Origin: a virus
DNA: 38,186 bases
IMG/VR virus record: IMGVR_UViG_3300034198_002642
Coordinates: 1-38,186 of that record
Reading direction: 5' to 3' (one strand)
The position numbers and the translations under genes were made by a program. Positions 27,243-32,268 of the stretch are shown one piece after another (the stretch's first letter is position 1; each line of letters opens with the position of its first letter). The notes beneath the pieces were generated by a model. It saw only the letters and a program-made list of their open reading frames with translations, was not told where the DNA came from and did not search any database.

Positions 27243-27809
27243 ATGCCAAGTCCACAGAAAGCAAAAGGGTCAGGATTCGAGCGAGAGATAGCTAAATATC
27301 TCAGCGAATTGTACGGGGAGAGTTTCATACGCGCCCCGGGCAGTGGCGCATATGTGGGCGGCAAGAATCAATCACGCACACAAGTGTTGCATGAAGGGCA
27401 GATACGTAGTTTCAAGGGCGATATCGTTCCTGGACAGAGTTTTCCTAGATTGAATACTGAATGCAAATTCTATGCTAATTTTCCATTCCACTTGTTATTG
27501 ACAGGTGAATGCAAACAGTTCGATTCTTGGTTAGATCAGTTACTAGAAGTAGAAGATGAAGGGGATTTCAACATACTTTTTATGAAGTTCAATCGCATAG
27601 GAAGATATGTAGCAGTACAACCAAAACTGACATGGATCACAGATAATTTCGTGTTCTATGGCAGCAAGACATATGGGGATTGGTACATCATGGAGATGAC
27701 ATCATTCTTCAAACACAACACAGCACTTTTCAAAGCATATTCAGGCTCAACAAATCCAGACACCAAGTCAAATTCACATATAACAATAGCTACAGAAACG
27801 ATTCAATAA
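27243..27809 (+). CDS. PD-(D/E)XK nuclease, Holliday-junction-resolvase-like
   Basis: This 188-aa protein starts KGSGFEREIAKYL, the helix with the first catalytic acid (E13) seen in Hjc-type resolvases. Residues KGDIVPG and LNTECKFY give the D60...E73-x-K75 core of the PD-(D/E)XK fold. Aromatic-rich strands follow (FNILFMKFNRIGRYVAVQPK). It lies 32 bases after gp46 and no other resolvase is seen in the window. It may do the branch-cleaving job that T4 gives to endonuclease VII (gp49), clearing junctions before packaging; this is inference. Another DNA end-processing role is possible. The last ~25 residues are polar and probably disordered. The ribosome site is weak, so it may depend on readthrough from gp46. 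Confidence 0.75.
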   Translation: MPSPQKAKGSGFEREIAKYLSELYGESFIRAPGSGAYVGGKNQSRTQVLHEGQIRSFKGDIVPGQSFPRLNTECKFYANFPFHLLLTGECKQFDSWLDQLLEVEDEGDFNILFMKFNRIGRYVAVQPKLTWITDNFVFYGSKTYGDWYIMEMTSFFKHNTALFKAYSGSTNPDTKSNSHITIATETIQ

Positions 27810-27818
27810 AATTCGTCT

Positions 27819-27836
27819 GATTGGGGTTCCCCAATC
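27819..27836. other. Strong hairpin just after the nuclease gene
   Basis: GATTGGG-GTTC-CCCAATC forms seven pairs with a four-base loop, ten bases after the nuclease stop. No T-run follows on the plus strand. On the minus strand a weak AATTTTATT comes several bases later. It may stabilise mRNA ends rather than terminate. Confidence 0.5.
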
Positions 27837-27853
27837 CTCCTTGAGTTTGTACA

Positions 27854-28209
27854 GGTAGTGCTGTGCTGACAGATCTGGAGCAAGCGTGTCAGAACATTAG
27901 ACACGGAATACCGACAGGGCAATCGTCAAAGCGAACCCTGAATGAGATCATGGTTACTCTATCTTGACACCATGATACATGCGTTGCTGAGGAATCAATA
28001 ATATCTGACAGCCTCACTACAGTCCATAAACTTTACAGGGCAACCGGTAGCACTAGGTGGCACAAATAGCCGATCTAGTGGGAATAGATAGCAAAGGATG
28101 ACGGGCATGGCAAGTCACCATTGGTAGTGCTGAATAGCACTACCATGGCTTCAAAGCGGCAAGTCATGTCTAGAAGCAGATAGATTGATAACAGTAAAAA
28201 GAATACCGA
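27854..28209 (+). repeat. Four dispersed 9-10-base direct repeats inside the gene-free region
   Basis: GGTAGTGCTG occurs at 27854 and 28123, GAATACCGA at 27906 and 28201, ACAGGGCAA at 27914 and 28035, and GGCAAGTCA at 28109 and 28158. Less than one repeated 9-mer is expected by chance in a stretch of this length. The copies mostly lie at hairpin arms, so they could allow alternative pairings. Both GGTAGTGCT copies can pair with AGCACTACC at 28136-28144. Confidence 0.55.
28118..28148. other. 13-base-pair hairpin, the strongest in the gene-free region
   Basis: GGTAGTGCT (28123-28131) pairs with AGCACTACC (28136-28144) around a GAAT loop. The stem continues with CCAT/ATGG after one bulged T. 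This is a strong, GC-containing stem unlikely to arise by chance. Confidence 0.6.
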
Positions 28210-28245
28210 ACGATGTGTGAGCGAAGCGAATACAAGTGAGGTATT
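28196..28245 (-). terminator. Possible terminator of the gp26/gp51 transcript
   Basis: On the minus strand AATACC (28245-28240) can pair with GGTATT (28207-28202), followed by C and five Ts. It lies about 60-110 bases past the gp51 stop. The loop is long (~32 bases) and the stem only six pairs, so this is weak. Confidence 0.25.
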
Positions 28246-28303
28246 AGATGACCGTAGGTCATCTTCAGAGATAAGCCTAAGTTATTACAATGAATAATTA
28301 CGG

Positions 28304-28534
28304 TTAGAAGAATGGTAATTTGCTGTTCTTCGTAGTCTCAAGATTTTCCTCTATTATCTTACTGATAGATTCTCTCTCAGGCCAAGATAGATTCAATATA
28401 TCCGTATAGGATATGCCACCACGCATGTACCAAGACATTTTCAATGCTTGATGCTTTATGGCATTGACCTCCTTTTCGTATTGCTCTATCAGCTTACTAA
28501 CACCCTCGGAGTCAAGGGAGAGAAGCCTTAACCG
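28304..28534 (-). CDS. gp51: gp51-like baseplate hub assembly factor, read by -1 frameshift from gp26
   Basis: The -1 frame after the gp26 slippery site encodes 76 residues (CGG at 28534 to TAA at 28306-28304). They form a charged helix (SKLIEQYEKEVNAIKHQALK), then SWYMRGGISYTDILNLSWPE and RESISKIIEENLETT, ending KLPFF. The W-Y-M-R-G-G motif and the ENLETTK...LPFF tail match what I recall of gp51 in T4-like phages, where gp51 is a non-structural catalyst of hub assembly encoded next to gp26. A TGA closes this frame just upstream of the slippery run, and no ATG, GTG or TTG occurs before codon 31 of the frame. Independent initiation would therefore lose most of the helix. The reading as a fusion is inference. 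Confidence 0.7.
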   Translation of the reverse strand, partial: RLRLLSLDSEGVSKLIEQYEKEVNAIKHQALKMSWYMRGGISYTDILNLSWPERESISKIIEENLETTKNSKLPFF

Positions 28535-29355
28535 AAAAAATCAGATACGTTTACTGTGAAGGTCTGCTGGAACTCATGTGAGCAATGGATACACTTGACA
28601 TCTAATGGTTTGTTCTCTGTAGACTTGCGTAACTCGAATGCCACACTCTGGATCTCATCATATGTTTTCTTATCTACATTGGACAGAAATTCATATATGT
28701 AGTTCTTGTCTAATACTGTCGCTTCGGGAGTCTTGATGTATTCGATTGTGTTGGCGATCAATTGCATAGTCATCTCACCTATCACTTTCACTAATTCATT
28801 GCCCCGAGTGATCTTTTCTTCCCCTTCGGGCATAGCTTCTAGGTTACCTAGCATGCGCTGGATGTTGAACTGCTCAGTGTTGGCCTTGTTGATCTCTCTG
28901 TATTTTAGTGGTCTGAATTTGATCACTAGATCACCCAGTCTAGTAGGTGTAGCGTAATCACCTGCACGGAATCCAGCAAGAATCATAGACAGATTCACAT
29001 CATATTTCGAATCTTCGCTGCAAGCTGGACAGACAGTCTCGATCTCCATCTTGTCACCTGTGCTAGCAGTACGTATAGCTACTAGGATAGGGTCTAGATC
29101 CAAACCATTGACTTCCCAAGGATCGATGATATTGGGTACACAACTCTTTATGATCTCTACTACCGCTGATCCATTGAACAACGCGTCCGGAGTCTTGGTA
29201 GTGATATCATCTATCGCAGTCATAGGATACACGGGCAATTCGCCGTTCTCAGGCAGATTCAACGATCCTTCTGCATAGCCTAAGCCTTCGCTAGGTAGTT
29301 TCAGATACAATGCAGGCCTGCGGAAATATTGCTTTAACGGGTTTACTTCATTCAT
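28528..29355 (-). CDS. gp26: Baseplate hub subunit gp26
   Basis: This 275-aa protein starts at ATG 29355 (MNEVNPLKQYF), with AAGGA five bases upstream. An in-frame ATG 23 codons earlier lacks this and lies next to the late promoter. It resembles T4 gp26, a hub assembly protein. The N-terminus (FRRPALYLKLPSEG, LPVYPMTAIDDI, PDALFNGSAVVEIIKSC) and the two-part zinc ribbon C109-PA-C112 and C255-IH-C258 (CPAC; CIHCSH) are visible. It ends SDFFG, with the slippery heptamer over the last F-F codons. With the frameshift the product would be 274 + 76 = 350 residues. The gene is divergent from the tape-measure gene, 72 bases away. Confidence 0.82.
   Translation of the reverse strand: MNEVNPLKQYFRRPALYLKLPSEGLGYAEGSLNLPENGELPVYPMTAIDDITTKTPDALFNGSAVVEIIKSCVPNIIDPWEVNGLDLDPILVAIRTASTGDKMEIETVCPACSEDSKYDVNLSMILAGFRAGDYATPTRLGDLVIKFRPLKYREINKANTEQFNIQRMLGNLEAMPEGEEKITRGNELVKVIGEMTMQLIANTIEYIKTPEATVLDKNYIYEFLSNVDKKTYDEIQSVAFELRKSTENKPLDVKCIHCSHEFQQTFTVNVSDFFG
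28534..28540 (-). promoter_or_regulatory. -1 ribosomal frameshift site T TTT TTC
   Basis: In the gp26 frame the codons read GAT TTT TTC GGT TAA, giving the canonical slippery heptamer T_TTT_TTC two codons before the stop. Two mutually exclusive stems follow: TTAAGG/CCTTGA (loop of eight), starting two bases downstream, and CCCTTG/CGAGGG (28518-28513 with 28508-28503, loop ACTC), starting 15 bases downstream. No upstream Shine-Dalgarno-like stimulator is evident. Confidence 0.65.
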
Positions 29356-29427: not shown

Positions 29428-32268
29428 ATGGCAGAAATTAACCCAGAAGAACTGAGCAAAGCACTAAAGAGCCTTACCGATAGCACCGGCGACGCCTCTA
29501 AGGCTACGAATGCTAGAGCCGCTGCGGAACAGAAAGCAGTAGAGACAGCCAAGATTGCCGCGGCTGCGTACAAGAATGCTGCTACTGGTATATTAGGTGG
29601 TGCTAAAGAATTAGGTAATGCTATGACCAGCAGTGCTGCAGGTCTAGAGAAATACAGCGGTGCTGTAGGATCCGTCACTAACACTACGTATGGGTTGTTA
29701 GCTGCTATGGGTCCTCTAGGACTAGCCATAGGTGGATTAGTAAAACTGTTTGGCATGGTCGCTACTGCATCGTTGAAACAGAACGATGCATTGAGCAAAG
29801 CATTCGATCAGTTGAGCGAGTTCGGAGCTATCGATACTAGGGGATTCAGGGGCGTACTAGATGATCTAAAAGCCGTAGGTGGTAGTTCAGAGAACATACA
29901 GTTCTTTCTGGAAGGCTTGCGAAAAGTAGGACCTGAATTAGGAACTTTTGGTGGTACAGCAGCAGTAGGCCGTAAAGCATTAGTCGATGTATTCCAAAAG
30001 ACTTTGCAGGGAGACACTGAGTATAGATTGAGGCGTTTCGGTGTCACTATGGAAGATGCCTTCAAGTTTACCGGCAATTACATAAAGCAACAAACATTGT
30101 CTGGTGGAACGTTAGGTAAAACTACAGAACAGTTGAATCAAGAGAGCGTGAGATATATAGGAAATCTCAGCGATATCGCAAGATTGACTGGTCTCACCAG
30201 AGATGAGATGGAAGAAGCTAGAGAAGCACAACTGCAAGATGCTAGATTGCAATTGCATCTACAAGAATTACGTGCTAGTGGAGCTAAAGGTGAAGCAGAA
30301 GCTAATCGCATACAGACTAGTCTAGCCTACGTAGAAAAGGTATATGGTAAATCGTTTGGTGACGGTATGCGCGACATGATACTCAATAATGGGGCTATCA
30401 CAAGTGACAAAGCAGCAGCCGTAGCCATGTCTTTGGGTAATGCAGGATTTGAAGGTATAAACAAGGTCGTCAAAGGTAGTGGAGATTTAGCCACAGACCT
30501 GGGAAATATGACTAACGATTTTGGTCCCAGATTAGAAGGCAACTTCAAGCGATTAGGTCCTGCGATGAAAGCCGGAGCTATGGGGGCTATGGATGAACTC
30601 GGTGTGAGCGTAGAAGCATATGCTGGAATGCAGAGGGCCAAAACAATAGATGTCAAAAAATTCATAGAAGAACGCGAAGCTATAGAGAAAGAAGGTGTCA
30701 ATGCTCGTAGAGATACAGAGACTGCGATAGTGAAGCAAGAACGTAACGTGAGAAACGCTATGGAAGACTTCAAATTTGCTATAGGAGACAAATTGTTACC
30801 GGCAGTGCTAGGTGCTACTAGCATATTCCATAGCTTTGCTAAATTCTTAGCTAAGATGATCGATAAATTCGGTACATACGTCGGTTTAGGAAAGACTAAT
30901 CTATCTGCTAATTTCAGAGACCTCACTGATAATGCGGAAGATTTAAAAGTAGCTAACCAAGAATTAGCAGAATCTAATCAGAAAGCAGCCTTAGCACAGG
31001 AAAGAAAAGCTAAACTAGATGAGATAGCAGCCGCATTGACTGAAGCTGGAGCACAAGGTGCTACTCCACGTGAGCAGGGCGCAGCTGCCCAACGTGCGAT
31101 AGACAAGCTAGTACAAGACCAAGAGAAATTGAGCGTAGCGAAAGAAGAGGCATGGAAAAAAGAGACTGACGCTACCAAAAAAGAACAATTGATGAAAGAG
31201 AAGCTAGCGGCTGATGAGCAGAGAGCCCAGTACTGGGATATAGCTAACTCTATGAGAATGGCAGGGGTCGACAGGAAGAAAGAGGTCTTCGATACTTTCA
31301 TGCAAAAACAGCAAACTGTCGAACAAGAAGAAAGAACGAAAATCCTCGAAAGAGAAAAAAAGATATTAGAACTCAAAGAAGAAACCGCAAAGTTAGGTGG
31401 TAAACAAGATACTAGAGACTTTGATAATATCACTCAGTCTTATATGGAGAAGGTTGCGAAAAAAGAATCCGGTGGCCAATACAACACTACTTTTGGTAGA
31501 TCCGGTACAGGTGATATCAATGGTAAAAAGGTAACTGAGTCTACCATCGCTGAAGTAGCAGCTTGGCAAGCCGAGGAGAAAAGATTAAAAACAAACAAGC
31601 AAGCTGCAGGAGCATATCAATTTATGGATGTTGCAGGCGCTGCGAAACGTGCCGGCATCGACATGACTGCTAAGTTTGACAAAGAGACTCAAGATAAGAT
31701 GATGCGCGCCTATACAGACGAAAATGCAAAAGTCTTACAGAGTCTAGGTGTATTTCCAAATGAAGAAAATCTGTCTCTAGCCCATGGTGTAGGTGCAGCG
31801 GGCGCTGCAAAATTGATCAAAGCACAAAAAGAAGGCAAAGGCGCCGACAAAGCTGCTGATGTCTTAGGGTTAAAAGAAGGTCCAGAAAGAGATACTAATC
31901 CGCATTTGATGAAACCTGTCAACACTGTTATTGCTGATTTTGCTAAACGTGTCGCTAAGACCGCTGCCACTGGCGGTGTGTTTGAAGGACCTTCTAGCGG
32001 TTACCCAGTCATGCTGCATGGTCCGGGTAAAGAGTTCGTGTTCAGGGAAGATCAATTACGCACTATGGTAGAGTCAGTGCAGAAGTCTACACTAGAATCC
32101 CAGATAGGTTCATTGACTACTAGACAGGGTTCTTTTGGATCAATGATGAATCCTAGTGATGATATCAAGACTATGGTGACTATGTTATCACAGAAGTTCG
32201 ATGATGCTATCGATGAGATACGTAAGGGAAATCGCATACAAGAAAAGGTTGTGACTGCACTAGCTTAA
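29428..32268 (+). CDS. gp29: Tape-measure protein (gp29-like) with lysozyme/transglycosylase-like domain
   Basis: This 946-aa protein has tape-measure architecture. It has an Ala/Lys-rich helical N-terminus and a hydrophobic segment at ~88-114 (LLAAMGPLGLAIGGLVKLFG). Long charged helices follow, densest at ~500-660 (LAESNQKAALAQERKAKLDE; EEERTKILEREKKILELKE-like). Residues ~671-815 look like a cell-wall hydrolase: KVAKKESGGQY with candidate catalytic E680, then KQAAGAYQFMDVAG, like the GxYQ motif of lambda R-type transglycosylases and phage lysozymes, then NLSLAHGVGAAGAAKLI. The C-terminus (GGVFEGPSSGYPVMLHGPG, EFVFREDQL) resembles the end of other tape measures. T4 gp29 is 590 aa without such a domain. 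Its role is setting tail length and helping DNA cross the cell wall. It is divergent from gp26/51 and precedes the portal. Confidence 0.78.
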   Translation: MAEINPEELSKALKSLTDSTGDASKATNARAAAEQKAVETAKIAAAAYKNAATGILGGAKELGNAMTSSAAGLEKYSGAVGSVTNTTYGLLAAMGPLGLAIGGLVKLFGMVATASLKQNDALSKAFDQLSEFGAIDTRGFRGVLDDLKAVGGSSENIQFFLEGLRKVGPELGTFGGTAAVGRKALVDVFQKTLQGDTEYRLRRFGVTMEDAFKFTGNYIKQQTLSGGTLGKTTEQLNQESVRYIGNLSDIARLTGLTRDEMEEAREAQLQDARLQLHLQELRASGAKGEAEANRIQTSLAYVEKVYGKSFGDGMRDMILNNGAITSDKAAAVAMSLGNAGFEGINKVVKGSGDLATDLGNMTNDFGPRLEGNFKRLGPAMKAGAMGAMDELGVSVEAYAGMQRAKTIDVKKFIEEREAIEKEGVNARRDTETAIVKQERNVRNAMEDFKFAIGDKLLPAVLGATSIFHSFAKFLAKMIDKFGTYVGLGKTNLSANFRDLTDNAEDLKVANQELAESNQKAALAQERKAKLDEIAAALTEAGAQGATPREQGAAAQRAIDKLVQDQEKLSVAKEEAWKKETDATKKEQLMKEKLAADEQRAQYWDIANSMRMAGVDRKKEVFDTFMQKQQTVEQEERTKILEREKKILELKEETAKLGGKQDTRDFDNITQSYMEKVAKKESGGQYNTTFGRSGTGDINGKKVTESTIAEVAAWQAEEKRLKTNKQAAGAYQFMDVAGAAKRAGIDMTAKFDKETQDKMMRAYTDENAKVLQSLGVFPNEENLSLAHGVGAAGAAKLIKAQKEGKGADKAADVLGLKEGPERDTNPHLMKPVNTVIADFAKRVAKTAATGGVFEGPSSGYPVMLHGPGKEFVFREDQLRTMVESVQKSTLESQIGSLTTRQGSFGSMMNPSDDIKTMVTMLSQKFDDAIDEIRKGNRIQEKVVTALA

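Follow-up and report, generated by a model that had tools for sequence, protein, structure and literature searches.

Many tailed phages make their tail assembly chaperones as two products of one gene. In lambda (gpG/gpGT) and P2 (E/E+E'), a short form and a -1 frameshifted long form are made near the tape measure gene; the lambda slippery heptamer is G_GGA_AAG. The question raised by the present locus is whether a T4-like gene, gp26, is joined in the same manner to the open -1 frame that overlaps its end. The locus lies on a 38,186-nucleotide stretch of viral DNA, here called the window, which spans positions 1 to 38,186 of IMG/VR record IMGVR_UViG_3300034198_002642 and represents an uncultivated relative of jumbo phages (Atu_ph07, 121Q, and PA5oct groups). 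The features considered here are as follows.

28528..29355, minus strand: gp26-like gene, putative short form of a tail assembly chaperone (TAC-N), 275 aa, with a T4_baseplate domain
28534..28540, minus strand: slippery heptamer T_TTT_TTC, in phase at the end of gp26
28528..28530, minus strand: 0-frame stop TAA, one sense codon past the heptamer, an offset kept in most relatives
28491..28527, minus strand: putative stimulatory stem-loop with a 6-nt spacer; outer arms 28527-28521 and 28497-28491, inner hairpin CCCUUG/CGAGGG
28304..28534, minus strand: -1 frame C-terminal domain (TAC-C), 76 codons plus stop, predicted to be reachable by frameshift only; open in all relatives, dN/dS 0.40
29428..32268, plus strand: 946-aa open reading frame, candidate tape measure protein by position and length, divergent from gp26

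The slip site and the -1 reading frame

The gp26 gene starts at the ATG at 29355, with AAGGA upstream (minus strand), and its 3' end reads GAT TTT TTC GGT TAA (minus strand). A sequence-only reading of this DNA had proposed a slippery heptamer there, and a sequence of the form X_XXY_YYZ is indeed present before the gp26 stop, as T_TTT_TTC at 28540-28534 in the correct 0-frame phase. The coordinates of the continuing frame also agreed with that reading: the -1 frame stays open for 76 codons past the heptamer, to 28304, and is closed directly upstream of it by a TGA (28543-28541). Its earliest candidate starts in the window are a TTG at codon 30 and an ATG at codon 32, just before the WYMRGG motif. 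A ribosome that had slipped would read FF followed by RLRLLSLDSEGV...SWYMRGG...ENLETTKNSKLPFF and terminate at the TAA at 28306-28304; the junction peptide predicted for the fusion is ...NVSDFFRLRLLSLDSEG....

The C-terminal domain encoded in the -1 frame gave a helical AlphaFold2 model (pLDDT 84). Profile searches with this domain gave no match, and a fold search returned mostly unnamed viral proteins (best E value, 1.3e-3), with named chaperones matched weakly at E values of about 1 or worse. By eye, the order of its C-terminal motif, SY..IL.L...ER, resembles the YSL..I..M.P.ER of cyanophages and T4 gp51.

A strong Shine-Dalgarno-like AAGGAGG is found inside the -1 frame at 28474-28468 (minus strand). 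It was rejected as a real ribosome site, as the ATG that follows it (28464) is off the -1 frame and meets a stop after two codons; its occurrence is probably due to chance.

gp26 belongs to the T4_baseplate family

Profile searches assigned gp26 to Pfam T4_baseplate (PF12322; E = 2.7e-19, 70.2 bits against a cutoff of 24.5) and to the baseplate hub family phrog_150 (E = 1.4e-21). The nearest named phages by gp26 are jumbo phages with T4-like genes, at 27 to 33% identity, namely, Sinorhizobium phage Phosso, Agrobacterium phage Atu_ph07, Pseudomonas phages of the Paride/PA5oct group, and the 121Q and GAP32 groups. Relatives in IMG/VR are closer, at up to 60% identity. An AlphaFold2 model of gp26, built from a 34-sequence alignment (pLDDT 87), resembled viral models of T4-like baseplate hub assembly proteins (best E = 2e-23). 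Searched against the PDB, the model had no match at E values of 0.001 or below, and among the matches listed there was no tail assembly chaperone; no solved structure with the lambda/HK97-type chaperone fold was thus matched in this search.

The gp26 protein also carries two invariant CxxC pairs, C109/C112 and C255/C258, the second of which lies shortly before the slip site. The sequence pattern of these four cysteines suggests a possible zinc-binding site.

Conservation of the junction in relatives

The junction was surveyed in 85 related loci from independent contigs (68 unique sequences) and in a second set of 84 loci, mostly cyanophage-like, that was seeded with gp26 from cyanophages, Cr30, phiM12, 121Q, and Paride. 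In the first survey, T_TTT_TTC was found at the end of gp26 in the same phase and followed by an open -1 frame in all 85 loci; the second gave an in-phase heptamer and the -1 offset in 84 of 84, with T_TTT_TTC in 83 and T_TTT_TTT in 1. The heptamer and frame offset, whose conservation the sequence-only reading had proposed to check, were kept in every locus of the two surveys. When the window is counted with the 85 loci, a complete -1 open reading frame of 71 to 77 codons follows the heptamer in 83 of 86, and the other 3 run off their contigs. The distance of one codon between heptamer and stop is kept in 65 of the 68 unique sequences.

The site is fixed at positions where the protein sequence leaves a choice. 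In every first-survey locus TTT is preceded by a T, even though the same amino acid could be encoded without one, and TTT is invariably used for the first Phe, compared with 66% TTT elsewhere in the gp26 genes. The chance of codon usage alone keeping T|TTT is about 10^-23, a figure that treats the 68 unique loci as independent, which they are not.

The -1 frame itself bears the marks of a coding sequence. Among 65 sequences of equal length it contains zero stops in 65 of 65, whereas stops average 7.7 and 7.4 per sequence in the other two frames, and its dN/dS is 0.40, compared with 1.11 for frame 0 and 1.81 for frame +1. Over the first 30 codons, a stretch that often lacks a start codon, the value is 0.46. 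ATG, GTG, and TTG are all absent from the first 12 codons in 48 of the 68 unique first-survey sequences; the frame, which is under protein selection, usually has no early start of its own and has none in the window. An ATG does occur close to the junction in some relatives (within 12 codons in 16 of 68 in the first survey and within 6 codons in 37 of 78 in the second).

A conserved stem-loop downstream

The sequence-only reading pointed to two possible stimulatory stems. One conserved stem-loop was found, beginning 6 nt past the heptamer, in which, in most relatives, GGCTTCT pairs with AGAAGCT to form the outer stem. For the seven outer pairs, 92.1% of cells across 47 distinct sequences show standard pairing, compared with 36 to 59% for slid controls, and cells with double changes number 11, compared with 2.3 in shuffles, a count that was reached in 0 of 500 shuffles. 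As a further control, each sequence was redrawn by sampling synonymous codons at the frequencies it uses itself, and the stabilities were compared. The stem region was more stable than its redraws (mean z of -3.7 over all sequences, with 92% below -1.5); control regions further downstream gave z values of -0.6 to -1.2. Covariation and the synonymous-codon control both support a downstream structure, and its 6-nt spacer falls in the range of 5 to 9 nt expected of a stimulatory element. The window's own stem, whose outer part has one mismatch and two G-U pairs, is weaker than those of its relatives (z of -1.3; -14.3 kcal/mol compared with a control mean of -10.6). RNAalifold at default settings reported no consensus structure once a set reached 40 sequences; with RIBOSUM scoring, and also in smaller sets, it recovered the stem.

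The same layout in other T4-like phages, and T4

The layout is common to cyanophages, a pelagiphage, KVP40, Cr30, phiM12, and jumbo phages: T_TTT_TT(C/T) followed by a -1 extension of about 57 to 77 codons was found in P-SSM2, S-PM2, HTVC008M, Cr30, phiM12, KVP40, GAP32, 121Q, Paride, Atu_ph07, and Phosso. Downstream pairing is predicted in all 11, with varying strength, and is weak in HTVC008M and GAP32.

T4 gp26 belongs to the same Pfam family, T4_baseplate, as gp26 of the window. Unlike in the window, gp26 and gp51 of T4 are separate genes in divergent orientation, and the slip site is absent, the 3' end of T4 gp26 reading GAG TTC TTT. T4 gp51 is 249 aa long and consists of a full T4_baseplate domain (aa 1 to 201, E = 3.9e-52) followed by a short C-terminal domain; it aligns weakly with T4 gp26 (161 columns, E = 2e-6). 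Its C-terminus is of the YSLxxIxxMxPxER type and resembles the -1 extension of other T4-like phages. T4 gp51, being a T4_baseplate domain plus a C-terminal piece, therefore corresponds to the whole fusion, and since it has the full domain and T4 gp26 has no slip site, the T4 long form is a separate gene. Outside T4, the long form appears from these sequences to be made by frameshifting. The second gene is annotated as gp51 in S-PM2; in KVP40, its record mentions a resemblance to a stretch of 40 residues at the C-terminal end of T4 gp51. The -1 piece in the window, described as a gp51-like end, parallels T4 gp51 by eye in the order of its motif. T4 gp51 is the equivalent of the entire fusion; "gp51" is a loose name for the 76-codon piece, which is not a whole gp51.

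Proposed mechanism and alternative explanations

We propose that gp26 would be the short form of the tail assembly chaperone (TAC-N) and that at T_TTT_TTC, helped by the stem-loop 6 nt downstream, some ribosomes would move back by one base, read past the TAA, and extend the protein by 76 residues to yield a long form (TAC-NC) of about 350 aa. The pair would be analogous to lambda gpG/gpGT and correspond to T4 gp26 and gp51, and both forms would be expected to coat the tape measure during tail assembly. The site, its phase, the coding -1 frame, and the stem are established by comparison of sequences; slippage itself, its frequency, and the coating of the tape measure by both forms are inferred. 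Comparison of relatives argues very strongly for a programmed -1 frameshift, and gp26 with its frameshifted long form very probably constitutes a TAC-N/TAC-NC pair made by stem-assisted slippage at the heptamer. Conservation of the heptamer, of the -1 offset, of the coding signal, and of the stem that follows gives strong support to the original suggestion of a G/GT-type pair.

The C-terminal piece could instead be an ordinary separate gene coupled to gp26 by termination-reinitiation, as its annotation as a separate coding sequence in Phosso, 121Q, S-PM2, and KVP40 and the ATGA or TAATG junctions of some relatives would suggest. Some of these phages have an ATG at the junction, but no start codon lies near it in the window, locus L006, Paride, GAP32, or most first-survey IMG/VR relatives, and phages without a junction start still keep the heptamer and a -1 frame that is coding from the heptamer onward. 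A separate start for the -1 piece was therefore rejected for the window and most first-survey relatives, and we regard reinitiation as an improbable account of the locus. Relatives in which gp51 has its own start and ribosome site and the slippery run is not conserved had been named in advance as evidence against frameshifting; a start near the junction is lacking in the window and most first-survey relatives and present, as an ATG, in some others, and a heptamer is kept in all surveyed loci. Because of that ATG, a separately initiated C-terminal product is possible in some relatives. It is even conceivable, if rather unlikely in our estimation, that many T4-like phages have a dual-output junction, at which slippage would give the fusion and a -1-frame ATG a few codons on would give a free C-terminal domain. 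If so, there would be three chaperone forms, and the window lineage, which lacks that ATG, would make the fusion but no free domain.

Two further explanations would do away with frameshifting altogether. Invariance of FF in the protein alignments might mean that the heptamer is kept merely because the protein needs Asp-Phe-Phe. Yet the synonymous positions are fixed too (T before TTT and then TTT TTC throughout the first survey), selection acts on the -1 frame, and synonymous drift has not eroded the stem; moreover, T4, which encodes its long form separately, retains FF but as TTC TTT. Given the fixed synonymous positions and the contrast with T4, we rejected protein-level constraint alone, which we consider very improbable as an explanation. 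The heptamer also includes a 6-base homopolymer, and the sequence-only reading had itself raised the concern that a miscounted A-run at 28535-28540 had split one gene. The offset recurs across 85 independent loci as well as finished phage genomes, and the heptamer with its -1 offset is therefore neither chance nor sequencing error; the probability of such an artifact is negligible.

Relation to earlier reports

The heptamer of the window, T_TTT_TTC, is unlike the G_GGA_AAG of lambda, and no sequence relation or solved-structure match was found between the chaperone of the window and the lambda or P2 tail genes. Vladimirov, Gautam, and Davidson (Virology 2022, 566:9-15) are said to have identified the tail assembly chaperones of T4-like phages in the gp26/T4_baseplate family, and their abstract reportedly mentions genes 26 and 51 together with frameshifting that is conserved in several groups of T4-like phages. 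Passages in the PRFect paper (PMC10885494) and the Adele paper (PMC12846349) credit the T4-like chaperone genes to Vladimirov et al. (2022); the former takes from that work that some T4-like phages have separate short and fused long genes, and the latter cites it in connection with slippery poly-T sequences in the TAC-N genes of T4-like phages. As described there, those chaperones are like that of the window, with one gene family and poly-T frameshift signals. The frameshift reading of gp26/51 is therefore not new, contrary to the impression that it was undescribed; it has been reported since 2022, and a similar trick is known from many tailed phages. In phage Adele (Vandenendeviridae/Andersonviridae), a conserved -1 frameshift at a poly-T slippery site at the end of TAC-N, upstream of the tape measure gene, is described in a passage of PMC12846349; the poly-T slip at the end of TAC-N is like that of the window, whereas the phage lineage and the GTTTTT motif differ.

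What the present locus adds is a large uncultivated clade, with its jumbo-phage relatives, to the T4-like phages that apparently frameshift their tail chaperone, and a conserved stem-loop as a testable signal. Current annotations of such genomes either divide the protein in two or overlook its second half.

Neighboring genes

The sequence-only reading placed the tape measure gene right beside gp26. A large open reading frame, of 946 aa at 29428-32268, does adjoin gp26, but no profile library names it a tape measure: it had no match to a tape measure family, and residues 721 to 800 match only an unnamed PHROG, phrog_22520. A large open reading frame also adjoins the chaperone in S-PM2, KVP40, and most named jumbo phages and, where tested, had no tape measure profile match. 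From position and size, it is plausible that the 946-aa product is the tape measure protein.

On the other side of the chaperone, the open reading frame at 27243-27809 (plus strand) matches Pfam PDDEXK_15, a putative phage PDDEXK endonuclease (E = 5e-23). The approximately 490 bases between it and the chaperone (27810-28303) hold no open reading frame of 60 aa or more and include a palindrome-like sequence, GATGACCGTAGGTCATC, at 28247-28263, which is possibly a terminator.
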